Shown: piece after piece, positions 15,448 to 36,463 of the stretch
Numbering within the stretch: position 1 is the stretch's first letter
Layout: the number at the start of each line of letters is the position of its first letter
Source: Flintibacter muris
GTDB taxonomy: Bacteria; Bacillota; Clostridia; Oscillospirales; Oscillospiraceae
Direction of reading: 5' to 3'
Length of the DNA: 64,000 bases
Assembly (NCBI RefSeq): GCF_943192995.1
Contig: NZ_CALPCP010000008.1
Span: 62,001 to 126,000, forward strand
Position numbers and translations under genes: made by a program
Notes under the pieces: model-generated
Told to the model about the DNA's origin: nothing
Databases searched by the model: none
The model's input: only the letters and a program-made list of their open reading frames with translations

Positions 15448-15929
15448 TCAAAATCCAATTTCCCGCAGCATGTTATAAATCGTACTCTTGATGGCCGCCC
15501 CGGCGGTGATGGGGGCCACCTTGCCCGGGAGGGAGAGAGCCCAGATGACGGTGAGGCCCAACTCACCCGCCGCCCCCAGGTCCACGCCTCCCGGCTTGGA
15601 GGCCAGATCCAGAATGAGGCAGTCGGCTTTGACATCCTCCAGCTCCTCCCGGCCCAGTATCTGAACGGGAACCGTGTTAACAATCAAATCATAGCCGCAC
15701 AGCCAGCCCTTCAACTGGGCCAGATGCTCTCCACCAAAGCCCATAGCCTGGGCCCAGGCCAGCTGGTCATACTTTCGGGCGGCTACGCTCACCCGGGCGC
15801 CCAGGGCCTGGAAGCGCTGGGCGGTCAGCCGTCCCACCCGCCCAAAGCCGATAATCAGAACCTTGGAGCCGTGGATGGTAATGGGCAGATGCTCCATAGC
15901 CAGCTGGATGGCTCCTTCCGCTGTGGGGA
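15448..15929 (-). CDS. dpaA: dipicolinate synthase subunit A, 3' part of split gene
   Basis: C-terminal 158 codons of SpoVFA, beginning at the shared 7 bp core. It encodes 'TAEGAIQLAMEHLPITIHGS' and the Rossmann nucleotide-binding motif 'VLIIGFGRVGR', then 'LILDLASKPGGVD' and 'SLPGKVAPITAGAAI', all typical of the family. The gene lacks its first 133 codons here. They are at 36063-36463 on the same strand. A nominal start further upstream (near 16008) lies inside the intervening element and overlaps the attachment arm, so it is not taken as real. Joining the two parts through TCCCCAC keeps the frame and gives 291 residues, close to the usual size of about 295. Confidence 0.93.
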
Positions 15930-15951
15930 GCGCATTAGCGATGGGACACAG
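15923..15951 (-). other. attL: left attachment site with recombinase half-site
   Basis: Core TCCCCAC (minus strand, 15929-15923). It is preceded on the element side by the arm CTGTGTCCCATCGCTAATGC (minus strand, 15951-15932), which matches the right-end arm in 18 of 20 positions in inverted orientation. Confidence 0.85.
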
Positions 15952-15970
15952 TTTTTGCATAATCAAACTC

Positions 15971-16483
15971 TCAGCCGATAGCGGCTCTGGCCCGGCAGCA
16001 GAAGTCATTCATACAGCTAACGGCGGTGGCTCTTGGAATCTTCAGAAACCGTGCGGCCTCACGAAGCGCAAAGCCATCCACCAGGAGCCGAATGATTTTC
16101 ACTTCCCTTGGCGTAGCCATACTTGCGACCTGTTCCAGAAGGACCTTGCCCTCAATTTGCCGCTCGGTATCTTGCCTGGGGTCTGTAAGCGGACTGCCGG
16201 CATCAGCCAGCCCCACAGTCACGCCGCAACGTTTCGCACGGGCATGATACTCACCCTCCCGAAGAACGGAATCCTTCATAGCCCGGAACGCCATAGCCTT
16301 GAACGCTACTCCGGCAGGAGGATTGCGGAAATACTGCTGCACAGCGGAGAGATAACCAAAGATTATGATGTCATAAAAATCATCCATCGGGAGACGTTTG
16401 CAGCGAAGGTAATCAATGACCATATCGTGGTGTTGCTCCGCAAACTCCCGTTCCTCCTGTGTCATAGGGCGCAAGGCCCTCAT
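15971..16483 (-). CDS. sigma-70-like factor at the left end of the element
   Basis: A 170-residue protein. The N-terminal half resembles sigma region 2 ('YDIIIFGYLSAVQQYFRNPP', 'AFKAMAFRAMKDSVLREGEY'). The C-terminal part is a helix-turn-helix like region 4 ('TPREVKIIRLLVDGFALREA', 'FLKIPRATAVSCMNDF'). ATG 16483 has GGAGTGAT upstream; a GTG three codons earlier is also possible. It ends the left operon, 42 bp before the attachment core, and reads toward the dpaA 3' part and dpaB. Such factors in phages and integrative elements often activate late or excision genes; a role here is inferred. Confidence 0.65.
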   Translation of the reverse strand: MRALRPMTQEEREFAEQHHDMVIDYLRCKRLPMDDFYDIIIFGYLSAVQQYFRNPPAGVAFKAMAFRAMKDSVLREGEYHARAKRCGVTVGLADAGSPLTDPRQDTERQIEGKVLLEQVASMATPREVKIIRLLVDGFALREAARFLKIPRATAVSCMNDFCCRARAAIG

Positions 16484-16559
16484 GTTTATCACTCCAATCA
16501 GTTAGTAAAATAGAGGGAACCCTTTGCGGCACAAGGGATTCCCTCAAAGATAGGTTTGC

Positions 16560-16931
16560 TTAATCCACCTCCAGCGGCAGGCAGACGATACGGCCATCCA
16601 TGCCCCAGAACATCTCCGGGGTGTAGAATTGTTCCCGGTACTGCTCAATCTGCTCCGAGGTCAGACTGGTAAAGTGGTCACTGTCCGGCGGAGCGTTGCA
16701 CAGGAAGAACGTACCGCACACAATATCACATAACTGCCCGTTCTTGTCCCGCAGCCCACGGTTTGCCGGAAGGTCCAGCAATTTGCCCTCGTCATTGCAG
16801 ACCAGCACGACAGAGTTCTCCAAGTAAATGGGTTGAATTAACCCACCCACGATACCCTGCATAGAGTTCAGAGAATCGTCGATTTCCTTCTCTTCCGGCC
16901 TCTGCTCAGGTTCAACTACTAAGACACGCAT
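16560..16931 (-). CDS. DUF3846-like small protein
   Basis: A 123-residue acidic protein beginning 'MRVLVVEPEQRPEEKEID'. It has the features of DUF3846-type proteins carried by Clostridia mobile elements: 'GIVGGLIQPIYLENSVVLVC' with 'NDEGKLLDLPANRGL' and 'IVCGTFFLCNAPPDSD'. The function of the family is unknown. It is in the left operon, 22 nt after the gene before it and 67 nt before the sigma-like gene. The ATG follows GGGAGAGT. Confidence 0.7.
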   Translation of the reverse strand: MRVLVVEPEQRPEEKEIDDSLNSMQGIVGGLIQPIYLENSVVLVCNDEGKLLDLPANRGLRDKNGQLCDIVCGTFFLCNAPPDSDHFTSLTSEQIEQYREQFYTPEMFWGMDGRIVCLPLEVD

Positions 16932-16953
16932 AGCAACTCTCCCTTCCCCATTC

Positions 16954-17742
16954 TTAGCTGGCCTGTGCCAGTTCCGGCACCATCTGGGCAGCGTTCACGA
17001 TCTCCATGAACTGCCGACCGAACGCCTTCGCCTGGGCCGTTTCCTCCGGGCTGAGAGTGCTGACCGTCTGGAAGTTGAACAGGGCGTAGGGCTTGCCCTG
17101 TTTGCTGGTGGCCTTCTCCAAGGTGATCTTCGTGACCACGCTGGAGATCGGCGTCAGGGTGCTCAGGAGGCGGGTGGAATACTTCAGGAAACGGGGTTTG
17201 CTGGTCACGGGGACACGCACCAGCAGAGGGATAATGCTGTTGGGCCGCAGAAGGAACAGGAGCACCGATTCCTTACACGCTTTGGCGTTGCTGTCCCCGT
17301 CCTTGGAACCGAAGTCATTGTAGGGACAGTGCGCACAGGCTTTCCCATCGTGGGAAATGATGCTGTTCTGGCTCATACAAACAGGCGGCGTACCCTCCAC
17401 CGGATCGGGCGTATCCCAATAGGCCCGGGGCGTGGTGTAGTCCAGCACAATGCCCGTCAGTTCCATGGCGGCTTCGTTTCCCGCCAGCCCCGGCACCTCA
17501 AACACCGTAGCCCCACCGGACGGAGATTTGACCACATCAAACAGGTCGAGGGTCAGCGGCTGGCTCTTCAAGTTAGCCCGGATGATGTCCAGGGCGTTGC
17601 TGGTCAGGGCCAGATAGGTGGAATCCACCGGGGCCAAAGAGTTTTCCGGCGCAGAGGTAACAGTGATAGCCTGATTTCCAGTGGGCTGCTGCAACTCCTG
17701 CACCTTGCCGCTCATACGGCCTTTGAGTCTTGCGTTATCCAT
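16954..17742 (-). CDS. putative phage-type DNA-binding/recombination accessory protein
   Basis: This 262-residue protein is not recognised with certainty. It has a central Cys/His cluster ('ACAHCPYNDFG', with another Cys at 'AKACKES'), a beta-rich core ('LLFLLRPNSIIPLLVRVPVT') and an alpha-helical C-terminus. Its place directly downstream of a YqaJ exonuclease suggests a single-strand-binding or annealing partner. Such exonuclease/annealase/SSB sets are common in phages and elements. The ATG follows GGAGGTCAATC. It is 13 nt from the upstream gene. Confidence 0.5.
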   Translation of the reverse strand: MDNARLKGRMSGKVQELQQPTGNQAITVTSAPENSLAPVDSTYLALTSNALDIIRANLKSQPLTLDLFDVVKSPSGGATVFEVPGLAGNEAAMELTGIVLDYTTPRAYWDTPDPVEGTPPVCMSQNSIISHDGKACAHCPYNDFGSKDGDSNAKACKESVLLFLLRPNSIIPLLVRVPVTSKPRFLKYSTRLLSTLTPISSVVTKITLEKATSKQGKPYALFNFQTVSTLSPEETAQAKAFGRQFMEIVNAAQMVPELAQAS

Positions 17743-17755
17743 GATTGACCTCCAT

Positions 17756-18700
17756 TCAGCTTGCCGACTTGATGGTAAAGCGGCGGTACGATGTCTTGTT
17801 GATGTACTTCTTATAGAGAGTGGGATGCTCGGCTTTTAAGGTCTTGCTGTCAAGCCGCTCCTGGGCCACGCTCTTCCAAGTCACGATACGACCTCCGGCA
17901 GTCCCTACCTCGTTCTCACCCAGCATCTCCTTCAGCAGATTTTCGGCCTTCTGCTTTCGCTCTGTGACAATCTCCAACTGTGCACAGGTTTCATCGTACT
18001 GCGAAAGAAGATCAGCGGCGATGTCCGGCAGGGCGATGTGAGACTTGGGGATACTGTCATGAAAGCGGTCAGCAAGGAATTTGGCGGTTGCATTGGAGTC
18101 ATCCAGCGGCGGGGGTGTGCAATCCTGCACATGATTCCAGAAATCGGTTTCCAGCTCAATGAGCATAGAAATCAATTCCTCGTCCCGTTCCACGAACTTC
18201 CAGCGGAAGGTATTGCCGCCAATGAGAACGGCGATATAGGCCCCGGCATAGCCAGTCACCGCCATGTAGTGCTGAATCTGGCACATATACTCGTCAGGAA
18301 TCGTATCTTCCCATTCCCCAGCCTTGTAAGCGGAGGCTGTCTTAGCCTCGAAAATATAGGTGCCATAATCCGGGACTTCACAGATACCGTCCAGATTTGC
18401 CAGCATGAAGGGATATTCCTCGCTCTGGAGCAATTCACTCTTGTGGCTGACCTCAATTCCGGTGCGCTTGGTGAACTCAGCCCGGACGAACGGTTCAAGC
18501 TGCGTCCCCCAGTAGGCAGCTTCCCCAGTCTTTTGGGACGGGAGCTGACCCGTCTTATCCAGCCACAGCTCCACAGAGGATTTATAGCGGTTGATGCCAC
18601 AGACCACAGAAGCGTCCGAGCCGCCGATGCCCTGCTTCCGATACTCCAGCCAGTCAGCATAGGGCATATTCTCGGTAGAAACAAGGATTTTTGCAGACAT
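17756..18700 (-). CDS. YqaJ-family viral recombinase (lambda-type exonuclease)
   Basis: A 314-residue nuclease of the PD-(D/E)XK fold that would resect double-stranded DNA ends for homologous recombination. Characteristic motifs are 'WLEYRKQGIGGSDASVVCG' near the N-terminus, 'PFMLANLDGI' (catalytic Asp), 'YIFEAKTAS' (the ExK pair) and 'MCQIQHYMAVTG'. A short coiled-coil C-terminal part follows. It is in the left operon, 15 nt after the DUF932 gene. AGGAGGGC precedes the ATG. Confidence 0.9.
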   Translation of the reverse strand: MSAKILVSTENMPYADWLEYRKQGIGGSDASVVCGINRYKSSVELWLDKTGQLPSQKTGEAAYWGTQLEPFVRAEFTKRTGIEVSHKSELLQSEEYPFMLANLDGICEVPDYGTYIFEAKTASAYKAGEWEDTIPDEYMCQIQHYMAVTGYAGAYIAVLIGGNTFRWKFVERDEELISMLIELETDFWNHVQDCTPPPLDDSNATAKFLADRFHDSIPKSHIALPDIAADLLSQYDETCAQLEIVTERKQKAENLLKEMLGENEVGTAGGRIVTWKSVAQERLDSKTLKAEHPTLYKKYINKTSYRRFTIKSAS

Positions 18701-18715
18701 TTTGACAGCCCTCCT

Positions 18716-19651
18716 TTATGCCGCTTCCAGCACCATCTTATACGCCTTGTCGATCATGGGGTTGCCCTCCACGGTGCGCAGGAACAGGTTTTCGTTGTAG
18801 TTCTTGGTCTTGCGGATAGGGTCGGCGTGGGTGGCAAAGTCGCTGATGGCATTGACGAAGCGGTAGCCGTTCTTCCCTACGTTAGAGAGATCGGGAGCCT
18901 CCCAGTACCGGGCCTTCATGTTGTTCAGCAACCTCATATTGTTCTTACGCTGAACGTCAGGCATATCCGGGGTAACGGGGAAGAACTCAGCCATGAACTC
19001 CATGACCTTCTTATCGGTCAGCTTGATCCTGGACAGGGTATCAATGCCCCGGCCCAGCTCGCCCATGTACTTCTCGGCCAGTCCCAACGTCTCTTCTGCC
19101 TCATGGACACGGCTCATGACGTTCTCGGTGTGCTTGGTAGTCCAGATACGCTTTGCACTGTTCAGAGCCAGATTCAAGGTATTCTGGCAGACAACCCGGA
19201 TAGGGGTCATGGCGACCTTGATACCGGAGCTGCCATCGTGGGAGTTCATCACCACCAGATAGGGAGCGATCTCGTCCCCAGCAATGATGTAGCGGTGGGG
19301 CATCCGGGCCAGCATCCAGACCTTGCGGCCACCCTGCAAGGCCCCGGCAGTCTCGTAGGTCACGCCAGCGCCCAGCAGATCGTCGGTAAACTGGAAAGCG
19401 TCCTCGTTCTGGACAACCTTGTAGCGGTCAGAGACGATACCCAGGGCGGCGTTGTCGATGCTGCGGAGATTGACCTTGTAGCCGGAGATTCGGGAGCCAT
19501 TCTCGGTGTAGACATCCTTCTGGATGACCTCCCAATCCAAGCCAGCGTAGATCAGGGCGTCGGCGGAGGTAGGAGCCTCCTGCACCTTAGTACCCAGGCC
19601 GTGCCAGGGTTTCTCTCGGACATAGAACATGGTTTCGATGTTCGCGGACAT
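18716..19651 (-). CDS. DUF932 phage/plasmid-type protein
   Basis: A 311-residue member of the DUF932 (phage/plasmid-like) family. It is recognised by 'WHGLGTKVQEAPTSADAL', 'AGLDWEVIQKDVY' and 'NTLNLALNSAK'. The family is common on plasmids, phages and integrative elements next to recombination genes; its biochemical role is unknown. It is the first gene of the left operon. AGGAGGG lies 8 nt before the ATG, and a promoter is at 19715-19744. Confidence 0.88.
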   Translation of the reverse strand: MSANIETMFYVREKPWHGLGTKVQEAPTSADALIYAGLDWEVIQKDVYTENGSRISGYKVNLRSIDNAALGIVSDRYKVVQNEDAFQFTDDLLGAGVTYETAGALQGGRKVWMLARMPHRYIIAGDEIAPYLVVMNSHDGSSGIKVAMTPIRVVCQNTLNLALNSAKRIWTTKHTENVMSRVHEAEETLGLAEKYMGELGRGIDTLSRIKLTDKKVMEFMAEFFPVTPDMPDVQRKNNMRLLNNMKARYWEAPDLSNVGKNGYRFVNAISDFATHADPIRKTKNYNENLFLRTVEGNPMIDKAYKMVLEAA

Positions 19652-19679
19652 TATAAATCCCTCCTAAATATGAAATGAG

Positions 19680-19704
19680 GCCCCGGGGAATTACCCCGAG
19701 GCCT
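19680..19704 (-). promoter_or_regulatory. leader hairpin of the left operon
   Basis: GGCCTCGGGG / CCCCGGGGCC forms a strong stem between the predicted promoter and the ribosome binding site of the DUF932 gene. It may be the terminator of the upstream GTPase operon or an attenuator. Confidence 0.5.
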
Positions 19705-19714
19705 TCGTAGCTAT

Positions 19715-19744
19715 AGTATATATTTGAAAAACAGGTGGGATCAA
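19715..19744 (-). promoter_or_regulatory. sigma-A-type promoter of the left operon
   Basis: On the minus strand, TTGATC (19744-19739), an 18 bp spacer and TATACT (19720-19715) lie about 65 bp before the DUF932 start. Confidence 0.5.
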
Positions 19745-19789
19745 ATGAAAAAACTACTTTCATCTGAATTGTTTACAAAGAGTACGGAA

Positions 19790-21337
19790 CTACATTGCAG
19801 CCGACAGAGCAACCAACTCGTCCACAATCTGGAGCAGCAGTTCTTCCATAGATCGCAGGTTTTTGGTATGCTCCGCGCAGCCGCTGTCCACCTCAGCCAG
19901 AGCCTGGTCAATTTTCTCCAACTGCGGCTCATAGAACCGAGTCAGAAAATCGTTGACCGACTTTTCATAGACGGCTTTTATTTTGATCTCCTGATCGCGG
20001 AGTTCGTTGAGCCACTTGTAGTAGTTTGCCAGTTGTTCCTGACTCCGGGCAGCGGCGGCGTCCTCTGATGTCTTGCCTGAGAAAAGATGGATGATTACCC
20101 GTATTGCTGCTACAATAACGGACATAGGAACAGGGACCGGAATCGGAATCGGTGCAATATCTATGATAAAAGAGGCAATTTGTGCCAAATCTCCAATGGC
20201 AGAATCGTTGTCATTCTGGGTAATTTGACCTGTTTCACCTGAACTTTCTGGCCTGTAATCCGGCATGGCCTCCAGCTTGATTTCGTTCTGGAGAACAATA
20301 TGCTCCTGTTCGGCCGCTTCTTTCAGCAGGGTATTCAGCGTTTCGCTGATTCGCCGGTCTACGCCCTCTACCGGCTGTCCTCTGGTCACGGCGGCTTTTA
20401 CATCTTCCAGGATCGCTTCAATTTTTCTCAGGCCGTCGGCCATAAGGCGTTCGTGCAGGCGCTGGCGAGAGGCAAGCAGGGCTTCCCGGTTCTTGGCCAT
20501 GTCCTGCTTTTCACCATAGATTGGGTCTATCTGGTATTGTTTGATGGCTTCACGCAAACTATTCTGAAGGTTGGTAAGGGGCGTTTGCAGCATGTAAACG
20601 GCTTCCGATTGACGAATAGCACCGTTGAGGGCATTGCACAGAGAAGGAAGACCGGAGAAAGAGTGAAGGGGTTCACGTCCTGCCGCTTCATACGCAACCA
20701 GAGCGTTAACGGGAAAAATGCCTAAAAAATGTTTCAGTTTCCCGGCAATCTGCATTTGATTACGGCGGCCCTGGACCTCCAGATTAGAGGCTACCTTTTC
20801 CCTTACCGTCCGGATAGAGGACTGCTCCGGCACAGAGATATTGGGATCCTCGCTGCCGTCTGCATTCTTTTGGTTTATGATAATGGCAAGGGGCTTTCCC
20901 TTTTTCAAGATATCCACAATCGCCTGATAAACTGCCACATTGTCGAAGGTATCCGCATTGTCCATAACGAAGAGAATGACATCGCTTTGAAGAATTTCAT
21001 GTTCAGCAATCGCGGTGTGTTCGGTATGAGCGTCAATACCCGGTGTGTCGATCAGTGTGTACCCCTCCCAAGGTACCGTTTGGATTTTATCCGTTGTGGG
21101 GACATCTCCGGTAGGCGCGATCTCTTTTTTGCACAGAGCGTTGATAAGCGTACTTTTTCCTGCGTTATATAACCCGTAAAACATGATAACAGGGGATTTT
21201 TTCTGTTCGGCATCTAACCGTGCGCTCTGTACATTCCGAGCGTGATCCGGCAAGCCTGACCGCTGTAAAATGGACTCCCCCTCCTGCAGCAGGCTTATAA
21301 CGGTTTGCTTGTGGTTGTTAATTTGCATAGTTTCCAT
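19790..21337 (-). CDS. dynamin-like GTPase, third of three
   Basis: A 515-residue dynamin-superfamily GTPase. The G domain shows G1 'GLYNAGKST', switch 'PTGDVPTT', G3 'LIDTPGID' and a G4-like 'IINQKNADG'. Long helical segments follow. Near residues 385-420 lies a hydrophobic stretch ('IASFIIDIAPIPIPVPVPMS', then 'VIVAAIRVIIHLF') that could be a membrane paddle. Its start follows the previous GTPase gene by 12 nt, with GGAGGG upstream. Bacterial dynamins remodel membranes, and some protect against phage lysis; the role here is inferred. Confidence 0.85.
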   Translation of the reverse strand: METMQINNHKQTVISLLQEGESILQRSGLPDHARNVQSARLDAEQKKSPVIMFYGLYNAGKSTLINALCKKEIAPTGDVPTTDKIQTVPWEGYTLIDTPGIDAHTEHTAIAEHEILQSDVILFVMDNADTFDNVAVYQAIVDILKKGKPLAIIINQKNADGSEDPNISVPEQSSIRTVREKVASNLEVQGRRNQMQIAGKLKHFLGIFPVNALVAYEAAGREPLHSFSGLPSLCNALNGAIRQSEAVYMLQTPLTNLQNSLREAIKQYQIDPIYGEKQDMAKNREALLASRQRLHERLMADGLRKIEAILEDVKAAVTRGQPVEGVDRRISETLNTLLKEAAEQEHIVLQNEIKLEAMPDYRPESSGETGQITQNDNDSAIGDLAQIASFIIDIAPIPIPVPVPMSVIVAAIRVIIHLFSGKTSEDAAAARSQEQLANYYKWLNELRDQEIKIKAVYEKSVNDFLTRFYEPQLEKIDQALAEVDSGCAEHTKNLRSMEELLLQIVDELVALSAAM

Positions 21338-21349
21338 CTTTTCCCTCCG

Positions 21350-23077
21350 TCAGTTTGTAAACCGCAATTTTTCCAGCTCTCCAGCTAGCCTGACCAACTG
21401 CCCGTCCAACTGCCGGTAGCAGTCAGACAGCGGGGCAATACAAGCAGAAGCCATACGGTCAATCGTCTCGGATACATATCTGCGCACCTCCGGGCGGAGA
21501 TTTTCTACCTGAGCGTCAAGAAAAGCGCTGAAATTATCTCCAGTGGCAATCTTTTCCGAACCAGAGACGTTTTTGTAGAATTTCTTGCTCTTATCGAAGA
21601 AGTACTGAATATGCTCCACCAAGCCCTTGGCGTCACGCTCTACCCGGCAGGTCACGGTCTGGCTCACATACTGAATCTGATACTCTGTGCTGTCAGCGGC
21701 TTGCGCGTCCAATTGGGGCAGCTCCAGCTCCAGAGATACCATCCCCAGCTTCTCCGTAAGAACCTTTGTACACGTTTCCGCAGTCAACCTGGAAATATCC
21801 TCCGACATCTCCCTGCTGACAACCTCTGCATCTCCCAGCAGTTTTCGGTCCCGCAGACTGCGGAACAGCTTGCTTAGGCTGATTGGGAACATCTGTTCAA
21901 TCTCGGCGCAAACAGTGGCTTGCGCATTCTGGCACTCAGTCAGAATATGTTTTAAGTCCGCCTGCTTTTTTTCCAGTTCGCAGCGCAGTTGCCGGATGGT
22001 CAGAATGTTACCGTTGTCCGCCTCGTCCAATCCGGTCAGGCGGTCGATAAAGGCGCTGATCTCCGCCTTGGGGCGGCGCATTTTCAGTTCGATTGCTCTT
22101 TCGGACAGGATATCCCCCATTTGTACCAGAAATTGGTCCAGATTGCTATCCTTATATAGCTCCATATCCTGTTTTGCCGCAGCATCCCGGGCCAGCATAA
22201 CGGAAAGGCTCAGGATGCGAGTATTTTCCAGGTTTTCGTTATTGTTAATCTCCTTCGCCTGTTCAGTTACATACCGCTCCTGAGCCTGCCGGTCCTTTGC
22301 TGGTTTGGGGATGCGCTTTCTGATAATTGAGCCGTCTTGCACTGTGTGCTTGAAGGTATCCGATTTCGTAATCGCCAGAATCACTGGTTTCCCCATCCGG
22401 AACAGCTCGGCCAGCATTTCACGCTCATCCTTTTTGAACGGGCTGCTGGAGGGCGTCAGGTAAATCACCAGGTCGGCGAACTGGATATACTCCTTAGCCA
22501 GATCGCCGTGCTCTGTGGTCAGGGAGTGCAGCCCCGGCGTATCCACCCAGGTCAAACCCTGGGCCAAGGTGTAGTGCTGGATGGTGGAGGTGGCCTCAAC
22601 GGCGTTTTCCGCGAAGTGATCGATTTTGCGGACGCTGCGGTCCTCGCCGCTGGCCGCGCTGTAGTCCTCAATCTCGCAGTCGTGGGGAATATAGAGGTCT
22701 TCATAGGATGTGCCACGGAAACTCCAACCGCCCACAAAGTTTCCCAGAGAACTTTTTCCGGCGTTCACATCGGCAAATACCAGGGCCAGGATGCTCTTTT
22801 CATGCCGGTTGACAAATTCGGAGCGTTCTATCTGCCTGCGTACCATGTCCTGCCAGCCTCGAAGCTGAAGCTTGGCATGTTCCATCGTTTCACGGCAGAG
22901 GTCCTGGTACTCCCCCGCGCCTTTAGGTGGTTCCGGGACGGTAATGCCGGTTTCCAGCAGCATTAACATCTGCGCCTTGCGGTCCTCAATACAGGCGCGG
23001 TTTTCGTTGAGGAGACGGTAGGAGTTCCAAATATCCTCATAAAATTGGGTAAAGCTGTCTCGGATCAAATCACTCAT
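21350..23077 (-). CDS. dynamin-like GTPase, second of three
   Basis: A 575-residue dynamin-superfamily protein. Its P-loop reads 'ADVNAGKSS', with Ala where the first Gly of GxxxxGKS is usual. G3 'WVDTPGLHS' and G4 'ITKSD' are intact. A long coiled-coil region follows (about residues 340-400, 'LRCELEKKQADLKHILTECQ'). Its ATG overlaps the stop of the first GTPase gene by 4 nt, so the two are translationally coupled and probably form a complex. Confidence 0.85.
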   Translation of the reverse strand: MSDLIRDSFTQFYEDIWNSYRLLNENRACIEDRKAQMLMLLETGITVPEPPKGAGEYQDLCRETMEHAKLQLRGWQDMVRRQIERSEFVNRHEKSILALVFADVNAGKSSLGNFVGGWSFRGTSYEDLYIPHDCEIEDYSAASGEDRSVRKIDHFAENAVEATSTIQHYTLAQGLTWVDTPGLHSLTTEHGDLAKEYIQFADLVIYLTPSSSPFKKDEREMLAELFRMGKPVILAITKSDTFKHTVQDGSIIRKRIPKPAKDRQAQERYVTEQAKEINNNENLENTRILSLSVMLARDAAAKQDMELYKDSNLDQFLVQMGDILSERAIELKMRRPKAEISAFIDRLTGLDEADNGNILTIRQLRCELEKKQADLKHILTECQNAQATVCAEIEQMFPISLSKLFRSLRDRKLLGDAEVVSREMSEDISRLTAETCTKVLTEKLGMVSLELELPQLDAQAADSTEYQIQYVSQTVTCRVERDAKGLVEHIQYFFDKSKKFYKNVSGSEKIATGDNFSAFLDAQVENLRPEVRRYVSETIDRMASACIAPLSDCYRQLDGQLVRLAGELEKLRFTN

Positions 23078-24675
23078 TGGGATATCTCCTTCTCCAACGC
23101 AGCCAAATGTTCTAACGCCTCGCGCAGAGGCTTTTCGGCGGACCTTTGGGAATTGGCAATGCTGGCATCTGCGGCCTTGCGCATTTCCTGAAAACGTTTG
23201 TCAGTTTCTGATTTGAGTGTTTTTAGAAATGGATTCCAGTAATATGATGAAAGGCTATCCCGTGCTTCTTCTACTTGCTGCTTGAATGTATCTGAAATTT
23301 CCTTATAGATGTTGGAAGTTGCGTTATGCGTATATATTACGTACTTTGGCTTTTTTATCACAACTCCAAACAGGCCACGTTCCTCGTACCAGTTATCGTA
23401 TTGGTTGACCTCGATACGGTCTTCATTCACATTAAGATACATACCGGGGGACCAATAATCCCCATTATCGGCAATCCTTGAAAGATCAGCATCTACTTCG
23501 GAGACATCGGGAGTGATTGCAATTTCCTCCACTGCTTGGATGTAAATGCCGTGCTGGCCAAGGCTTACCTGAAGTTCTTCTAACAGCTGATTTACTGTGC
23601 TGCAAAGCTTGAAGTACTCACTGTCGATCCCGGTTGTACCATAGTCTTGTCTGGCTTTCTGAAATATTTGTTTAATTGCTTTATGAGCATCGCTTACTCC
23701 GCGCTCAGCATATGAACGCATGTGATCTCTTGCCTGTCGTTTCAATGAGCTTCCATCTTTTCCCTCAAATGACTTATCTCTACCACTAAGGGAAAGCGAC
23801 CCATATAAACTTACCCCAACATTGATTTTCTCTGTAAGCATCTCTTTCGTCCTGGAAAACATCGCTTTTATCTGATCCTGCTGCTTCCGGGCAGACAGAT
23901 TTGCCATTCGTTCCAAACAGTAATCCTTGCAACGACCGACCTGCTTCAGAAGAGCCTTCCCCCGTGCATTCAATTCCGCTTCATGGGCCTGTCTCAACGT
24001 CTCCCCGGTTCCCGAAATCAATTCCGCCAAATGGGCCTGGAGTGGAGGAAGCGCACTGTGCTCTACCAGAAGAGGCTTGTCCTCAGCAATCCCTTTCTGA
24101 TAAACGACGGAATCTACGCAAAAGATTGAGTCGGGCGCAAATCCGAGAATTTTTTCCAGATCGGCGGTGGTTTTATTCCGGATTACCGCTACCTGCTCCG
24201 GTTCAATCTGCCCGCAGTGGGTCAGGACATAGACCATCCGCTGCTTCAGACTGTCCGCTGTATAGTGATCCCGCAGTCTATTCAGCCAGACGGCCTCCAC
24301 CTCGCCAATGCCTCCGTTTTGAGCACTGGACACGAAGATGATAAAATCCGCCGACTCATAAGCTGCCTGCGCCTCCTGGTCGTCCGAGCCCTCGGCGTTG
24401 AGCCCGGGGGTGTCGATGTAGACCGCGCCGCCAAATTCGGCCTGCGCAACAGCTTTCGTGGTGGGGACATCCCCGGTGGGGAACCTCTCCTCCCCACATA
24501 GCGCATTGAGCAGGGTGCTCTTTCCCGCATTGTAAATTCCGGTGCATACGATATTCGGGATATGACGGACCGGATTTGAAACAGCGGCCTGATATGCGTC
24601 CCAGGCTTTTTCCAAGCGCTGAATATCCTCTTGAGGAACTCCCGCTTTTTGCAGGATTTCTTTTTGCAATAACAT
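23074..24675 (-). CDS. dynamin-like GTPase, first of three
   Basis: A 533-residue dynamin-superfamily protein with G1 'GIYNAGKST' (about residues 46-54), switch 'FPTGDVPTTKAV', G3 'YIDTPGLNA' and a divergent G4 ('VLTHCGQ'). The rest is mainly helical. ATG 24675 is preferred because GGGAGGAAAGACA precedes it; a start 15 nt upstream is possible. It opens the coupled three-GTPase block and follows two small genes in the same orientation. Confidence 0.85.
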   Translation of the reverse strand: MLLQKEILQKAGVPQEDIQRLEKAWDAYQAAVSNPVRHIPNIVCTGIYNAGKSTLLNALCGEERFPTGDVPTTKAVAQAEFGGAVYIDTPGLNAEGSDDQEAQAAYESADFIIFVSSAQNGGIGEVEAVWLNRLRDHYTADSLKQRMVYVLTHCGQIEPEQVAVIRNKTTADLEKILGFAPDSIFCVDSVVYQKGIAEDKPLLVEHSALPPLQAHLAELISGTGETLRQAHEAELNARGKALLKQVGRCKDYCLERMANLSARKQQDQIKAMFSRTKEMLTEKINVGVSLYGSLSLSGRDKSFEGKDGSSLKRQARDHMRSYAERGVSDAHKAIKQIFQKARQDYGTTGIDSEYFKLCSTVNQLLEELQVSLGQHGIYIQAVEEIAITPDVSEVDADLSRIADNGDYWSPGMYLNVNEDRIEVNQYDNWYEERGLFGVVIKKPKYVIYTHNATSNIYKEISDTFKQQVEEARDSLSSYYWNPFLKTLKSETDKRFQEMRKAADASIANSQRSAEKPLREALEHLAALEKEISQ

Positions 24676-24695
24676 TGTCTTTCCTCCCAATACGA

Positions 24696-24851: not shown

Positions 24852-24855
24852 TTTC

Positions 24856-30247: not shown

Positions 30248-30298
30248 ATTTCTCCATTATCTATCTATATTTTGTTCTACATTCTTCTGTGCTGTCCG

Positions 30299-30336
30299 GC
30301 AACCCTCCCGGCAGCACGCGTTGCCGGAAGGGTTGC
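30299..30336. terminator. hairpin terminator
   Basis: GCAACCCTCCCGGCA / TGCCGGAAGGGTTGC stem just after the stop of the upstream minus-strand gene. Confidence 0.6.
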
Positions 30337-30344
30337 TGTTTTGC

Positions 30345-31846
30345 TCAGATATTTGCCGGGTTTTCCAGCAACTGGGCTGGGATCGCAACCACGTAAGTGC
30401 TGTCCCGTGTCCCGTTTGCCATCAGATCATACCGGTACCGGTATCCGGAAGACGGAGCTTTGATTAACCCTTCCCCAGCCAGGATTTTCTGCAAATCCTG
30501 TGTCCACCTGTCCCGTTGAAAAAAAGAACAGTCGAGACCTTTTTCTTTCCGTGCAGTGCGCTTGTACTCCACGGCCCAAGTATCTTCTGGGAAGATCAAG
30601 AATCGCTCTCCGCCGATAACACGCCACGCCGCCATAGGCTTGTCCGCCTTGACAAAACGCCGGTCCTCCGGGACAACGGCGCTGCCTCGCTCACTGATCA
30701 GGTTCCTCATCAATTCCAGAAAGACATCAGATTCTTCCACATGTCGGAGTTTCACGTTCTGTCCCGGCTCAGGGTCAAATACCTCTTTTGCACCTTGGCG
30801 GTACGGCTCCAGTTCTTCATTGGACATCAGTTTTGCTTTCTGCAGTTCCACCAGGAAACTCAGTAATACCTGATACCGGATGGCATCCCGCAGTAGCTTG
30901 GGGTCTAATGTCGCTTGAATGTACCGGCTGTCTGGTTTCCCGAAAGACAGCCTTGCCTTTTGAACAACCTGCCTGGCCCAAATATCCTCATCTTCCAGGG
31001 CTCCATCCCACCACCAGTGCAGCAGCACGGCAATCCTCGAAGTTTCCTCCCTGAGCTGAGCGGCAATTTGGGGATCATAGCCTGAGATGTTTGCCGTGTC
31101 GGCGCGAGCTCTGTCCGGGCGCAGTTGAGAAAAATAACCGATGCGTCCTCAATATACGGGGTCAGTTCGTTGATCTGTGGAGACGATGCGCCAATCACCA
31201 GAGCAGACGTGTCGGTATAGGGCATAGGAAGCGTCAACTTGGTTTCTTTGTACTTGACTTTTAGCCTGGTGTGATCCTGAATGTGCAGCGGCAGATATTG
31301 CTCCGTCCGATAGTCCAGCACCGCACCCCGCTGGACGCTCCAGTTCTTTCCTTTCCATTCTCGAATCGTGGTCACTGCCCGTACTATGCCGCACAGCAGC
31401 GATTCGACCTCCGGATTGCTGGAGGATGTCGCGCTCATTGCGTGGAAGGACGGCTCCGCCGTCCGCAAAGCCATAGCGTGCTGTCCGCACAGGATATCAG
31501 TTATGAGTCGGTATCCTGTTCTTTGGGGATCAAACAGCTCCAAAACTGCCAGGAAGGTCTGTGCAGCCTGCCGAAAATCATCCTCGGTACTTATCCTCTT
31601 GTGCCCATCTATCCTGATTTTTCTCCTGGTATTAGGCAGTTGGGGGCCGCACTCCACACAGCAGATGCGGTACACATCGTTCTTCAGCCACTTTTTGAAA
31701 TGTTTTTCCCGGGCCTCCAGGGTCATGTCCGAGAAATTAGGGATATATTTCTCTAATTTTTTTTCGGTCAACAGGGCAACAGATTCATTCTCCACTACAA
31801 AAAACTGCTGCTTATTCGTTACGATCTCAATCACCTGAGTTTTCAA
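30345..31846 (-). pseudogene. frameshifted element gene of unknown function
   Basis: Two overlapping frames make one protein. The 5' frame (31846 to about 31105) starts at TTG after AAAGGAGGATCATT and encodes up to '...FLNCARTELA'. The 3' frame continues as 'DTANISGYDPQIAAQ', then 'LLHWWWDGALEDEDIWARQ', to 30345. The switch needs a one-base change near 31100-31115, in GC-rich sequence with no slippery run. It is therefore more likely a mutation (or sequence error) than programmed frameshifting. The restored product would be about 500 residues. It resembles DUF927/DUF3987-type element proteins only vaguely. It lies between the helicase-like gene and the recombinase in the same orientation. Confidence 0.6.
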
Positions 31847-31902
31847 AATGATCCTCCTTTGCTTATTGAGCAGGCAAGGGGGAGCCCTGCCTGCCTATGC
31901 CT

Positions 31903-33501
31903 TCACTCCGTGACCGGGCGGCACTCGGTGACGCTTACCTTGTAGCCCCGCCCCGTGCCGCTCCCCCCGGCACGAACCAGAAACCGGATCGGCAGCTCCG
32001 CCACTTCGACGATGAAGTAATCCGGGTAGACGGTGATCCGCTGGATCACTTCATCCAGGACAGCATCACCACCCGCCAGTTCCCGCTCCAGCAGGACTCG
32101 AATTTCCGCTAATCGTTCCGTATTGTGGCTCAGACGCTTTTTCTCTTTCTCGACTTCCTCAAGCTGTGTCCGCAGCCGTTCGATCTCTTCGTCACAACGT
32201 GTTAACATTCGCTGCATGTCATTTTTGCTCAGGCTACCGTCCAAAAAAGCCTCCAATGCCCGGTCCCGCCGGTCCGACTGTTTTTGAATCGCCTGTTGAA
32301 TCCGCTGAGTCCCGCCGCTGTCCTCTTGCCGCGCCTGCCTAAGCTGTTCCAGCTCCTGCAAGAGGCCGCCAATGATGGCCTCTCCGTCCAATGCCAGCTC
32401 CCGGAGGACACGCTGAGCGCAGGCTAGAATAACCGGCCCGTGAACCGCCCTCATCTGACAGCCGACGGTGGTATCAAAATGTCCCCGGCAGACGAACCGC
32501 TGGTAATCCGTACCGTTGGCCCGGCGTGTGCGCTTCACCGTGAAGCTGCGCCCGCACGCACCGCAGCGGACCTTTCCTGAAAACCAGTACCGGGCTGAAA
32601 ACCGGCCCTTGTCCTCCACCATACTGGCCCGTTCCGACAAAGCTGACTGAACGGCCTCAAACTGCTCCCGGCTGACGATGGGCTCATGGTGGTCCCGCAG
32701 AAGCACCTGTTCTTCTGTTCCGTCGTTGAGTATCTTGCGGTGGCTGAGATAGTCGGTCGTCCGGTATTTTTTCTGCAGCAAATCCCCACAATACTTTTCA
32801 TTCCTGAGGAGTTTCACTATCATTGTGGAGGACCAGGCCCCGTTGGGCCTGAGGGGCGGACGGATACCCGCTTCGGTCAGCTCCCGGGCAATGGTATGAG
32901 ACCCCTTGCGTTCCACCAGAAACTTATGATATACTAAGCGTACCACCTCCGCCTGTTCCGGCTCGACGGTCAGCTGGCCGTTGGCCAGGGTGTAGCCATA
33001 CAAGGATTGATTTCCAAATACTACCCCCCGCTTCATTGCCTGGAGCTGCCCCCATCGTGTCCGCTCGGATATTTTCCGGGACTCCTCCTGAGCCACACTG
33101 GCCATGATAGTCAGTCGGAACTCGCCGTCGTTGTCCCTTGTGTCGATGTTGTCATTAAGGAATAGGACGCCCACTCCCTTTTCTTTCAGTTTCCGGGTCA
33201 CCTGGAGGGTATCCACAGTGTTCCGGGCAAACCGGGAGACTTCTTTGGTGATAATCAGGTCGATCTCACCGTCCAGAGCGCGGCTGATCATTTCCGCGAA
33301 CTGGGGCCGGCGTTTGATCGAGGTGCCGGACAAGCCCTCGTCCGCGAAAACGCGGACAAGGGACCAGCCCGGATGCTCCGTGATGTACTTCTGGAAAAAC
33401 TGCCGCTGGGCGGACAGAGAGTTCAGCTGATCCTCTTTGTCCGTAGACACCCGGCAGTAGGCCGCCACCCGCAGCGGGCCGTTAAGTGGCAAGGGCTTCA
33501 T
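31903..33501 (-). CDS. large serine recombinase (probable dpaA element excisase)
   Basis: A 532-residue site-specific DNA recombinase. It has an N-terminal resolvase domain ('VAAYCRVSTDKEDQLNSLSA', catalytic Ser19), a recombinase domain from about residue 160, a zinc ribbon with CxxC ('VRCGACGRSFTVKRT', then 'FVCRGHFD') and a coiled-coil segment (about 380-450). This is the layout of large serine integrases such as SpoIVCA of the skin element. It is the only recombinase in the element and should act on the split dpaA sites. Its start overlaps a 29-residue ORF with a strong ribosome binding site, which suggests coupled translation. Confidence 0.93.
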   Translation of the reverse strand: MKPLPLNGPLRVAAYCRVSTDKEDQLNSLSAQRQFFQKYITEHPGWSLVRVFADEGLSGTSIKRRPQFAEMISRALDGEIDLIITKEVSRFARNTVDTLQVTRKLKEKGVGVLFLNDNIDTRDNDGEFRLTIMASVAQEESRKISERTRWGQLQAMKRGVVFGNQSLYGYTLANGQLTVEPEQAEVVRLVYHKFLVERKGSHTIARELTEAGIRPPLRPNGAWSSTMIVKLLRNEKYCGDLLQKKYRTTDYLSHRKILNDGTEEQVLLRDHHEPIVSREQFEAVQSALSERASMVEDKGRFSARYWFSGKVRCGACGRSFTVKRTRRANGTDYQRFVCRGHFDTTVGCQMRAVHGPVILACAQRVLRELALDGEAIIGGLLQELEQLRQARQEDSGGTQRIQQAIQKQSDRRDRALEAFLDGSLSKNDMQRMLTRCDEEIERLRTQLEEVEKEKKRLSHNTERLAEIRVLLERELAGGDAVLDEVIQRITVYPDYFIVEVAELPIRFLVRAGGSGTGRGYKVSVTECRPVTE

Positions 33502-33571
33502 ACTCTTCCTTGGTGATAAGCCCCGCCTTCAGCAGACTGCGCAGCAGCGCGATACGAAAGACAGAGTTCAA
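33482..33571 (-). CDS. 29-residue leader ORF overlapping the recombinase
   Basis: TTG 33571 follows AAAGGAGGGAATTCC. The ORF encodes a short basic helix ending 'LKAGLITKEEYEALAT' and overlaps the recombinase start by 20 nt in another frame. The SHOCT-like ending is typical of small ORFs found before serine recombinases. It may couple recombinase translation or act as a small accessory factor. Confidence 0.65.
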   Translation of the reverse strand: MNSVFRIALLRSLLKAGLITKEEYEALAT

Positions 33572-33713
33572 GGAATTCCCTCCTTTCTGTTTTTTGGGCC
33601 CAGGAGCATCGTAACAAATTTTGGCGTTTTTAGCGCAGGGGCTGCAATTTCCACTGATATCTTTTGTATTTCTGAAAATAATGCGTAAATTTCAAACTTT
33701 TGGTGGTGATTAT

Positions 33714-35246
33714 ATGGATGGTTATTATAAATTGATTCGTCGGGTTTATTCTGAAAAGCGTATTCAGCCCACGGAATATCTTCCGTGGGCCGAATATCTT
33801 TCTCGGTATAATGTTTCCTTTACCATAGGGAACTCCATATATTCCAAAACCGAAGGTGTTCATGCTTTGCTCTGTGCTGTCGAAGCGGGTGGGTGTGATT
33901 CCGAACTACTGGATTGGGCCAGGATATTCCTGACAGATCGCGGCCTCCTGTTTCCTCAAACAAGGGAACGGTTCTATGATTCTCCGAATCGATCCATGAA
34001 ACGGCACATGTTAGCTTGCGGTGCCGGTCAAAAGGTCACAGAGTATTGCCCCTCTCTTGCATACGAACAGGAGAGCGCCATCCTGAATCAAATCGAAGCC
34101 TTCCATCAAAGTACTTTGTCCGAGTGGAAAACCGCATTACCGGCCTTGAAACAGTACTTGTATCTGGATATGACAAGGTTTCAGCACCGCTTTGCAGAAC
34201 GATCCGTTACAGGGGGGAAACTGATCCCTTATGTGGACAGACTGAACAGTGCGTTCCAAAAGTATCTTATCCAAATGGAGGCGTTTATTTCTCCAAACGT
34301 CAACACGGAGGATATTGCGTACTATTTTATATGCAAGTCCTTCATGAAAAGTAAACAGCCGGTTTATCTGAACCGACCCGATATTATCTTTCAAATGTTC
34401 CGTTCCCCAGTTCACCGGTTTCTGTATCAGGGTAACTGGGGCGTTGCTAACGCAATCCAGGATGGATGTGTCCGCCGTCCGCTTCCGATTACTGTCCAGT
34501 CCCTTAACGCAGATCAAGAACTGTTTCAGCAAATCACTTCGATCTGCGCCGAAGCCTGTGCGAGGTGTGGGCTCGACTTTTCCAAAGAATCTTGGGATGC
34601 CCTGTGGAGGTGTATCGAAGCCTGCGTTCAGTGTTTCCCTTATCAGATCGCGGACTTATTTTCTGTTCAATATATGTTCCGTCAATTACTAAAATTCCGA
34701 CGATCAGGATACCCTGTCTTCGATCAATGGCTGGAGCAGAAACTGTCCGCCAAATCAAACCCGATCTATATCGCCCATTGGAGCGCCCTTGTCAGAAAGC
34801 TGTATGTTATGTCAAAGCAACAAGGAGATGCCACCGATTTATGGCTGGACAGTATCCATAAATACCGTAAGCTGTTGGAATCTCCTGAAACAGACGATTC
34901 CGAGATTTTTCCTGTCATTGAGCCGTTGGCCGCGAGAGTACCCCGCAATCAAATCTCAACCACACCGGAACAAGCTGAACTGGAACGTATCATTGCAGAA
35001 CTGAATCAACAGGCGGATGAAGTCAACAGAATACCGCCGTTGAAAGGGCGGTCGCGAAAAGGACCCTTGGCAACGATGCAGACAGCCCGAATGAGAACAT
35101 ACTACAAGACAACAGACGCGGCCCGTGCAATTGACGCTGTCCACGCTGAGTGGCTCCTTCTTCAATGCGTCTGTAGTCAGGCCCAGCGCGAGCTGATGGA
35201 GGCCATCTATCTGCTGCTTACCAAAACAAACGGAGGCCCGGCGTGA
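33714..35246 (+). CDS. hypothetical protein, about 510 residues
   Basis: No family is recognised. ATG 33714 follows GGTGGTGATT; ATG 33681 in frame is possible. The protein is basic, Tyr- and Gln-rich, helical, and has no membrane segment. Features include 'SYPSLAYEQESAI'-like helical segments, a Cys-rich stretch ('ICAEACARCGLDF', 'EACVQCFPYQIADL') and a C-terminal helix ending 'LLTKTNGGPA'. It is divergent from the recombinase and convergent with the MNT/HEPN pair, between recombinase and right attachment site, a usual place for cargo. Confidence 0.65.
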   Translation: MDGYYKLIRRVYSEKRIQPTEYLPWAEYLSRYNVSFTIGNSIYSKTEGVHALLCAVEAGGCDSELLDWARIFLTDRGLLFPQTRERFYDSPNRSMKRHMLACGAGQKVTEYCPSLAYEQESAILNQIEAFHQSTLSEWKTALPALKQYLYLDMTRFQHRFAERSVTGGKLIPYVDRLNSAFQKYLIQMEAFISPNVNTEDIAYYFICKSFMKSKQPVYLNRPDIIFQMFRSPVHRFLYQGNWGVANAIQDGCVRRPLPITVQSLNADQELFQQITSICAEACARCGLDFSKESWDALWRCIEACVQCFPYQIADLFSVQYMFRQLLKFRRSGYPVFDQWLEQKLSAKSNPIYIAHWSALVRKLYVMSKQQGDATDLWLDSIHKYRKLLESPETDDSEIFPVIEPLAARVPRNQISTTPEQAELERIIAELNQQADEVNRIPPLKGRSRKGPLATMQTARMRTYYKTTDAARAIDAVHAEWLLLQCVCSQAQRELMEAIYLLLTKTNGGPA

Positions 35247-35269
35247 GCACATGGCTCAGCCGGGCCTCC
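35232..35269. terminator. bidirectional terminator
   Basis: GGAGGCCCGGC / GCCGGGCCTCC stem, extended by TGAG/CTCA, between the convergent 510-residue gene and the HEPN gene. Confidence 0.75.
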
Positions 35270-35283
35270 GGTCTGGTTTCTCA

Positions 35284-35685
35284 TCAATATGAGTCAATTT
35301 CAGGATATCGCTCCACAATTTTGCGCTCCAATCCCTGGAACACAGGAATATATGAATCAATGATAACTCGGGCCAGCCTCTTGGCGGCATTTCCGTCGTA
35401 CACATGGCTCATGCTGTTACGGTCATTAAGCATGGCGATCCATATATCCTCGTCAATAAAATCGTAGACTTGAAAAGCGGTTTTTAATATCTCCCGAGGT
35501 GAACCAGATTTAGCCTCAATCCTGCCCTCATACTGAAGTAATTCCTTCAGTACTTTCCAGCCTAGTTCAAACTGGATCATAAATTTGTCAATGATTCCGC
35601 CCGTGACAAATTCGTTTTCCAGGTCCTGCTGGTCCGCTTGGGACAGGACCACCAGATTGGCCCGGTAGTGATCAAACTTTTTCAT
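35284..35685 (-). CDS. HEPN-family (HI0074/HepT-like) toxin
   Basis: A 133-residue HEPN protein with the RNase motif R-x4-H ('RNSMSH') and the family's start 'MKKFDHYRANL' and 'FELGWKVLKELLQYEG'. In type VII MNT/HEPN systems the HEPN protein is an RNA-cutting toxin. Its reading frame overlaps the end of the MNT gene by 14 nt, so the two are co-translated. It lies about 380 bp inside the right end of the element. Confidence 0.85.
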   Translation of the reverse strand: MKKFDHYRANLVVLSQADQQDLENEFVTGGIIDKFMIQFELGWKVLKELLQYEGRIEAKSGSPREILKTAFQVYDFIDEDIWIAMLNDRNSMSHVYDGNAAKRLARVIIDSYIPVFQGLERKIVERYPEIDSY

Positions 35686-35968
35686 AGAGAACCCGTCCCT
35701 CCTTTTGGACTGACGCCAGCAGATCGGAAGAAATATCCTGCCCCATGTCCACCACATCATATTTCAGCAGGGTAGACGTCTCCTCATCGATATCCACCGC
35801 AAACCGCGCGATTCTGCCACCCCAGACCGCCAGATCAATGTCGCTAGCCCGGTGATAATCCCCTCTTGCGCGGGAACCGAACAGAATCACCTTATCCAAC
35901 TGATGCCGTTCCGCGAACCGACAGATTTCTGCCTGCACCTGATCTTTGATTCCAGTATTGGACAGCAT
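35672..35968 (-). CDS. MNT-family nucleotidyltransferase antitoxin
   Basis: A 98-residue minimal nucleotidyltransferase with the active-site block 'VILFGSRARGDYHRASDIDL' (GSRARG plus the Asp pair). Partners of HepT toxins neutralise them by adding nucleotides to the toxin or by direct binding. ATG 35968 follows GAGGTGAAGGGT. It is the first element gene downstream of the dpaA promoter in the same orientation, so sporulation transcription could read through into it before excision. Confidence 0.87.
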   Translation of the reverse strand: MLSNTGIKDQVQAEICRFAERHQLDKVILFGSRARGDYHRASDIDLAVWGGRIARFAVDIDEETSTLLKYDVVDMGQDISSDLLASVQKEGRVLYEKV

Positions 35969-36037
35969 ACCCTTCACCTCGTTCCTTAAACGCTATCTTC
36001 AGTTTACTCAAATTCTCGCAGCTTGTCAATCAAACTT

Positions 36038-36463
36038 TTACCTGTGTCCCACCGCTAACGCCGTGGGGACGGCGTTGGCCACAGCCAGCTCCTCCCGGGC
36101 AAAGTAGTCGTAGATAACCAGCCCCCGTTCCTTGGCCATGGCGTAAACCGACTGATCTACCCGTCCGCCGCAGAGAAACTGGTGGGGAACCAGCTGATCC
36201 AGTATGGGGGCAAGGGGATGCTCCAAAAGGGACAAAGGCGCGTTGAGCAGTCCGTTTCCGGCGGAGATAGTGAGGGGGAGTACCACACAGTCCGCCTTGT
36301 CCACCCGGCGCAGGGTGGTTTCTACAGTGAGGTCGGGAACCGGTTCCTGGGGCTCCCCCAGAGCGTAGGTATGGACGGTGTGGCCATCCTCAGCCAGCAG
36401 CTGAGCCAGCTTGGCCTGCCGCAGGTCGCCGCCCACCACCCAGATGTTCAATTCGTGTTTCAT
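36038..36463 (-). CDS. dpaA: dipicolinate synthase subunit A, 5' part of split gene
   Basis: The first 133 codons of SpoVFA plus eight codons that read into the element and stop. ATG 36463 has TGGAGG upstream. The N-terminus 'MKHELNIWVVGGDLRQAKLA' is the family's dinucleotide-fold start, and 'VVLPLTISAGNG' follows. The last native residues are 'AREELAVANAVPT', where B. subtilis DpaA has the equivalent IPTxEG motif. Continuing at 15922 gives 'VPTAEGAIQLA', in frame. Without excision only a 141-residue, surely inactive, fragment is made. A longer ORF start (36883) runs through a terminator and a dispersed repeat and is not accepted. Confidence 0.94.
   Translation of the reverse strand: MKHELNIWVVGGDLRQAKLAQLLAEDGHTVHTYALGEPQEPVPDLTVETTLRRVDKADCVVLPLTISAGNGLLNAPLSLLEHPLAPILDQLVPHQFLCGGRVDQSVYAMAKERGLVIYDYFAREELAVANAVPTALAVGHR
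36042..36069 (+). other. attR: right attachment site with recombinase half-site
   Basis: Arm CTGTGTCCCACCGCTAACGC (36042-36061) followed by the core GTGGGGA (36063-36069). The arm is the inverted partner of the left-end arm. Together they would form a symmetric attP in the excised circle, centred on a CC dinucleotide of the core. Confidence 0.85.

Follow-up and report, generated by a model that had tools for sequence, protein, structure and literature searches.

What becomes of a gene for dipicolinate synthesis when some 20 kb of other DNA stands in the middle of it? The question is raised by a 64,000-bp stretch of the Flintibacter muris genome (GCF_943192995.1, contig NZ_CALPCP010000008.1, positions 62,001 to 126,000; this whole stretch is referred to as the window), in which the sporulation gene dpaA is interrupted at codon 134/135 by a 20,140-bp element carrying a large serine recombinase (LSR). 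Spores owe part of their heat resistance to dipicolinate. We consider it probable that the insertion is a skin-like element, predicted to leave dpaA in the sporulating mother cell and to restore a 291-codon dpaA when dipicolinate is made. The position of this insertion (dpaA codon ~134) is called site 1, and a second position occupied in relatives (codon ~247) site 2. The following features define the split:

36063 to 36463, minus strand: 5′ part of dpaA (codons 1 to ~134), joined frame; PF16924 DpaA_N, 1.4e-24
15448 to 15929, minus strand: 3′ part of dpaA (codons ~134 to 291), joined frame; DpaA models NF006162 / TIGR02853, C-terminal part
14797 to 15375, minus strand: dpaB, uninterrupted, downstream of dpaA; NF006161, 6.6e-75
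36514 to 36540, minus strand: sigma-K/E-like promoter of dpaA, AC-N17-CATACAAT, intact upstream of the 5′ part; sequence pattern
15923 to 36062, no strand: intervening element, 20,140 bp (one core counted), from the joined flanks
15923 to 15929, no strand: core GTGGGGA, one element end
36063 to 36069, no strand: core GTGGGGA, other element end
15932 to 15951, no strand: attP half-site GCATTAGCGATGGGACACAG, inverted repeat of 36042-36061; roughly half of the relatives split at site 1 have similar arms
36042 to 36061, no strand: attP half-site CTGTGTCCCACCGCTAACGC, inverted repeat of 15932-15951

The earlier note, made from the letters of this DNA, had described two collinear dpaA parts separated by 20.1 kb and a 7-bp core repeated at both ends, and this anatomy held up in full. 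Both parts lie on the same strand, 20 kb apart, and the top NCBIfam matches of the 3′ part were the two DpaA models (model positions 127-290); each half scores under the NCBIfam cut-off, which is set for the whole protein. Joining the flanks at GTGGGGA gave a stop-free DpaA frame of 291 amino acids in which '...ANAVPTAEGAI...' spans the join, just as the note had read VPTAEG across the junction. Upstream of the 5′ part, we take AC-N17-CATACAAT to be a sigma-K/E-type promoter by its consensus; the exact CATACAAT was present in 23 of the 30 dpaA upstream regions examined (the window and 29 relatives).

A second, intact dpaA and an assembly error had both been raised as possible objections. In a DpaA_N search of the window's genome (4.52 Mb, 126 contigs, 97% complete), the split copy was the one match and no second dpaA was found. 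An assembly error is unlikely because a single 143-kb contig holds both junctions, and comparable dpaA splits are found on large single contigs of relatives (3.67 Mb in G218, 3.2 Mb in Agathobaculum massiliense and 2.28 Mb in G133). The split is also beyond chance, since the same 5′ junction recurs in 20 other genomes, 19 of which were read on both sides, and since the joined element ends form an inverted repeat. Joined to each other, these ends read CTGTGTCCCAcCGCTAAcGC-10 nt-GCaTTAGCGaTGGGACACAG, a near-perfect 20-bp inverted repeat, and two 20-bp arms around a 10-bp centre are the shape expected of an LSR attP.

Which enzyme would act on these ends? Two features of the element are of importance here:

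31903 to 33501, minus strand: large serine recombinase, on the dpaA strand, ~2.5 kb downstream of the 5′ part; PF00239, PF07508, PF13408; phrog_95 integrase, 6.5e-129
33482 to 33571, minus strand: small open reading frame (ORF) with TTG start, overlapping the recombinase start, LNSVFRIALLRSLLKAGLITKEEYEALAT; candidate accessory/directionality factor, from ORF comparison

The single LSR that had been noted in the element was recovered, with Resolvase, Recombinase and zinc-ribbon domains above their cut-offs and a weak coiled-coil-type match under its cut-off. In the proposed mechanism, this LSR would recombine attL and attR, while a directionality factor, for which the small ORF at 33482-33571 is a possible candidate, would restrict excision to the mother cell. 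The mother cell would die, and the spore would thus keep the integrated copy.

How widespread is such an arrangement? Among 64 genomes searched in the genus, 61 had a dpaA match. The comparison with related genomes, which the earlier note had suggested as a check, returned an intact, single-piece dpaA in 56 of these 61 and a split one in four (G000, which is the window's own genome, G021 and G055 at site 1; G006 at site 2); G025 was excluded from the counts, as two dissimilar dpaA sequences were present at its contig ends, neither of them interrupted at site 1. The family sample comprised 400 genomes, 315 of them with a dpaA match, and a re-search took in 33 genomes: G021, G025 and every other genome that had given at least two matches in this sample. 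dpaA was split in at least 26 of the 315 dpaA-bearing genomes, a lower bound, as family genomes with a single partial match were left out of the follow-up. Six genomes (G094, G131, G162, G209, G213 and G279) were dropped from the counts because their second matches were weak, adjacent or cut by contig ends. With one further congener, the total amounts to 27 split genomes: 21 at site 1, 13 at site 2 and seven at both. These seven (G106, G148, G190, G208, G218, G271 and G448) thus carry dpaA in three pieces. In G218, all three follow each other in order on the 3.67-Mb contig; in G106, the piece following site 1 was not found beside its junction, and for G424, another genome, the evidence for the 3′ side of site 2 is limited to a protein match.

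A sample at the level of the order comprised 394 genomes, 332 of them with a dpaA match. In it, the genus of G752, whose DpaA is 97-99% identical to that of A. massiliense, had six split and four intact genes among ten genomes, the junctions being read only in A. massiliense itself. Six more genomes outside the family and the Agathobaculum genus (G568, G610, G611, G616, G705 and G747) gave two dpaA matches each. Among the best 80 of 363 recombinase loci in named genomes, 19 had dpaA pieces, including the 12 best. Carriers exist as strains, including Flavonifractor sp. An10 and An112 and A. massiliense Marseille-P4005, and Butyricicoccus faecihominis DFI.6.109 showed a dpaA 3′ piece and a recombinase in the stretch examined. 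The dpaA insertion is hence no lone oddity: there are many insertions, at two sites in one family, and site 1 is also used in a second family. A viral origin was considered and set aside, as dpaA stood beside a related recombinase in 0 of 30 viral loci.

The insertions sit at fixed, conserved codons and bear the hallmarks of site-specific recombination. At site 1, the 21 five-prime and 20 three-prime sides that were read lie at the A-V-P-T codons, and the window-type arm GTGTCC...GACAC was found in 10 of 19 reconstructed attPs; G074/G218 and G148/G271 have other site-1 arms, again mirroring each other. The site-2 join lies within K-P-G-G-V-D, with TTTGGATAAGG-type arms in several genomes. DpaA_N matches residues 6-121, and site 1 is consequently close to the boundary between DpaA_N and the NAD-binding domain. 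This placement, along with an in-frame ATG within the window's element that turns the 3′ piece into an ORF of 186 amino acids, would suit an alternative in which the pieces are made as separate polypeptides that assemble. We regard such a split protein as extremely improbable: site 2 falls within the NAD-binding domain, where the cut leaves 42-44 residues (from codon 250 on) as a tail, seven genomes have the gene in three pieces, and in the genus 56 of 61 genomes encode one chain.

Does the host still make use of the interrupted gene? If it were dead, dipicolinate synthesis would be abolished and the host would be non-sporulating or form spores without dipicolinate. Such a loss is tolerable: Clostridioides difficile dpaAB mutants still sporulate, although their spores are less heat resistant (PMC4959285), and several spore-forming clostridia are without dpaAB (PMC3533761); the failure to find an attP in 300 assemblies, by a pattern of limited reach, also fits a dead gene. 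Against it, the pieces have remained open: at site 1, both are stop-free to the normal end or to site 2 in 20 of 20 sets, and at site 2, the 3′ tails are open to the usual end in all 12 read. The clearest case is the pair G148/G271, in which both sites are occupied in both genomes. Their two recombinases and a cargo gene have dS values of 0.54, 0.53 and 0.37, as expected for shared descent; the elements were therefore most likely present in the common ancestor, and the pair most likely shares both by descent. The three dpaA pieces of this pair show dN against dS of 0.048/0.385, 0.033/0.470 and 0/0.255, whereas comparable neutral drift would break the frame: in a neutral simulation at d=0.4, 0 of 2000 copies remained stop-free. 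Four small site-1 loci (three from Agathobaculum and one from a Eubacteriales bacterium, with pieces 2.5-3.9 kb apart) gave pairwise dN/dS of ~0.08-0.32 for both halves. Of the 27 split genomes, 25 had SpoIVA, among them every one of the 19 with a completeness of 90% or more. The open pieces, the low dN relative to dS in the pair and the presence of SpoIVA support a restored, working dpaA, and we consider a dead gene to be quite improbable. The skin-like reading of the earlier note is partly supported: its anatomical part (split, LSR, att sites, no second dpaA found) is confirmed, and the restored, working gene is backed by the comparison of relatives.

Is dpaA the only late mother-cell gene affected? 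A sigma-K search found sigK in pieces in many of these genomes, and the DNA was read for six. With a recombinase beside the junction in each case, sigK is cut near sigma-K model position 112 in G190 (L254) and G208 (L255) and near position 67 in G218 (L256/L257), G240 (L258) and G055 (L259/L260), the last two of which also stop early near position 213. In the window's genome, sigK (C25:19902-20537; L261/L262) ends at SYVSR, near the last helix, and its tail IEKKALEKL is located on contig C78 (L266), ~30 bp after a recombinase ORF of 534 amino acids. The two ends share a TCCCG core with mirrored TGTAAACGAT arms, and the joined reading is GISRSYVSRIEKKALEKLQ. The pieces lie on different contigs, and the intervening element was not read through. 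Judged by these ends, sigK of the window's genome is split by another LSR element, out of view of the earlier note. As dpaA has a sigma-K-type promoter sequence and sigK is itself split, two excisions in series are likely required in this bacterium. The order would likely be excision from sigK, formation of sigma-K and then transcription of the excised, restored dpaA.

What, then, do the elements have in common, and is their exit timed? The recombinase is the most widely shared element gene (30 of 38 element pieces, the next non-overlapping family reaching 7 of 38); the other large ORF clusters in these pieces overlap the recombinase in other frames, and tblastn located another three recombinases as well as part of a fourth. 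In a recombinase tree of 44 rows, which carries long-branch warnings, a branch (92/88) has the site-2 recombinases on one side, the site-1 members cluster strongly without forming one clade (3 changes against a shuffled mean of 14.9), and 12 of 13 other recombinases group together, the remaining one being a very long branch. Of 34 recombinase genes located, 13 begin on the dpaA strand no more than 500 bp from the 5′ junction, an arrangement that PMC10747680 notes for skin and yin. Read-through from the dpaA promoter was rejected as a general trigger, for it fits these 13 and not the recombinases at the 3′ end; it was also rejected for the window's recombinase, which is 2.5 kb away with an opposing gene in between.

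Counterparts of the small ORF were found at 10 of 20 site-1 recombinases (window included) and at five of six further named loci examined; an eleventh flagged match, in G448, looks like noise. A different short ORF precedes 5 of 10 site-2 recombinases. We regard LNSVFRIALLRSLLKAGLITKEEYEALAT as a candidate directionality factor. In the C. difficile skin element, the LSR CD1231 works with a small directionality factor, CD1234, under sigma-E and SpoIIID, and the small factor is the sporulation-timed part (PMC5025042).

Several observations weigh against developmentally timed excision. An excised circle, recognized by its attP, was found in 0 of 300 family genome assemblies with a pattern that recovers 10 of the 19 reconstructed attPs; this weighs little, because assemblies from growing cells are expected to lack attP under the proposed model as well. 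(One viral contig matched the attP pattern and was judged a chance hit, being without an inverted repeat and without a recombinase match.) No CATA-type -10 was seen in the 150 nt preceding the window's recombinase, and a weak one lies 215 nt upstream. Several elements carry the recombinase at the 3′ end or pointing the other way, so that it is not always downstream of the dpaA promoter, and the small ORF was not seen at 10 of the 20 site-1 recombinases. In Flavonifractor sp. An10 (G365, contig C10), the pieces at 132372-132776 and 393808-394293 are on the same strand, 261 kb apart and in reversed order, an arrangement that may not be mendable in place by simple excision; recombination may instead give a 261-kb circle with a restored dpaA, or the contig may be misjoined. 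According to PMC3533761, dpaAB is absent from several spore-formers and its presence does not predict sporulation. Finally, the window and G021 differ in their dpaA pieces by dN/dS values of 0.169/1.37 and 0.108/2.19, and their recombinases by a dS of only 0.74. The recombinase dS below that of dpaA, together with an element that is turned round, suggests separate, perhaps recent insertions and leaves shared descent unsupported; the evidence for selection therefore comes from relatives rather than from the window's own lineage.

The orientation of the elements deserves attention in this regard. Elements in dpaA occur in both orientations relative to the gene (L065/L066 of G021 and L070 of G082 compared with the window). 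The G021 recombinase is 88% identical to that of the window, yet it is the 3′ part of dpaA, rather than the 5′ part, that borders the recombinase end of its element. It looks as if the near-palindromic arms allowed inversion, or insertion either way.

Could these simply be ordinary site-specific mobile elements that use a conserved dpaA stretch as attB and leave at random, at a low rate and at any stage, restoration being a by-product? The contents of the window's element have to be considered here:

19790 to 24690, minus strand: cargo, three dynamin-like GTPases (19790-21337, 21350-23077, 23074-24690) matching PADLOC LeoA/LeoBC
35284 to 35977, minus strand: cargo, nucleotidyltransferase / NTase-binding pair adjoining one element end; PF18765, PF08780
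16560 to 19651, minus strand: phage-type cargo, with DUF3846, YqaJ/RecE-like exonuclease, DUF932 and a phrog_23155-matching gene; Pfam/PHROGs

Such large and unrelated cargo, present in many elements (phage-type genes, Leo-like GTPases, the nucleotidyltransferase pair), is in line with ordinary mobility. The PADLOC matches of the three GTPases suggest that the window's element may carry a defence system. Repeated insertion is indicated by site-1 recombinases that are mostly 40-70% identical to the window's, by elements in both orientations and by the window/G021 recombinase dS, lower than that of dpaA; the missing sigma-E/K-type -10 within 150 nt of the window's recombinase fits as well. Nevertheless, we consider ordinary mobility unlikely. 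Small elements of about 2.5-5.2 kb kept in dpaA in several species, and the low dN relative to dS in pieces apparently split since a common ancestor, both ask for reliable restoration; in addition, the window's genome has an interruption in sigK, another late mother-cell gene. A prophage was likewise considered and rejected: there were no virion structural or packaging genes among the 18 element proteins by Pfam (8 of the 18 without a match), nor among 10 of these compared with PHROGs. Relaxase and type IV secretion Pfam families, which would mark an integrative conjugative element, were also absent among the 18, though with the same 8 lacking any Pfam match.

Some further contents were named by eye from the sequence rather than from library matches. 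The G148 element carries an rRNA-methyltransferase-like gene as cargo. The site-2 elements of G240 (L139) and G448 (L114), ~5.2 kb each, hold thiamine-synthesis-like genes, and their open recombinase ends at the 3′ junction. The 4.6-kb dpaA element of G055 (L062:4336-8980) encodes a recombinase of 467 amino acids and, on the opposite strand, FHA-FtsW-like and penicillin-binding-protein-like genes. Other recombinases of the same kind are found elsewhere in this bacterial family (L039-L041, L044, L048-L051, L053, L054, L056, L059 and L060), and their targets may include more sporulation genes.

How does the element compare with known systems? Such elements are known in sigK, spoVFB, spoVR, spsM, gerE and yabG (PMC5595907, PMC4191935, PMC5025042 and PMC10747680). 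The closest is vfbin in spoVFB (dpaB) of Bacillus weihenstephanensis KBAB4, likewise a recombinase element, which interrupts the other subunit gene of dipicolinate synthase and is excised during sporulation (PMC10747680, PMC4191935). Here, however, dpaA and not dpaB is the target, the host belongs to another class, two sites and many elements are involved, and no phage structural genes were found in the window's element. In B. subtilis and C. difficile, skin also interrupts a late mother-cell gene, sigK, by an LSR element (PMC5025042), while target gene and att sites differ from ours, the directionality factor is only a candidate here and the window's genome additionally carries an insertion in its own sigK. 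The 28.6-kb gin in gerE of B. cereus ATCC 10987 is a non-prophage element as well, with gene restoration in sporulation (PMC5595907), but has three recombinases compared with one in the window's element and sits in a different gene. Two more interrupt mother-cell sporulation genes: yin in yabG of C. botulinum V73, with a recombinase just downstream of the 5′ part (PMC10747680), and SPbeta in spsM of B. subtilis, excised in sporulation through sprA/sprB (PMC4191935). Unlike the window's element, both are prophages or prophage-like, and yin is reported from one strain.

Judged by its anatomy, the window's element fits the skin, vfbin and gin kind, with excision in the mother cell as a prediction: it lies in a mother-cell gene, restores the frame on joining, brings its own recombinase and att sites, and no second copy of the gene was found. 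The earlier note held that an element in dpaA of an Oscillospiraceae-like host is not known to have been described, and a literature search agreed, with none in dpaA/spoVFA among the matches listed, most subscription papers and preprints being outside its coverage. As far as can be seen, what is new is dpaA as a target, the two sites in one gene with three-piece genes, the occurrence in two families of gut bacteria, and the interruption of both sigK and dpaA within one genome.

Should excision be confirmed, developmental DNA excision would have gained a new target in dpaA, one that elements have re-used heavily, at two att sites and with up to three gene pieces, and annotation pipelines would then report a broken dpaA (and sigK) for gut bacteria that may be good spore-formers. 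The attB sites of the site-1 and site-2 recombinases are defined, unrelated to each other and located in conserved codons, and since carriers exist as strains, the question is directly testable. Taken together, the data might even point to a lineage of gut spore-formers that keeps late mother-cell genes split as a developmental rule, a reading we hold tentatively and at slightly less than an even chance. sigK and dpaA, each with several insertion sites occupied by different site-specific recombinase elements, would then be spliced at the DNA level in order, first sigK and then the sigma-K-driven dpaA. The last steps of sporulation would be gated by a series of irreversible excisions, and mobile elements would re-use these gates again and again as secure sites that are never lost from the germ line.

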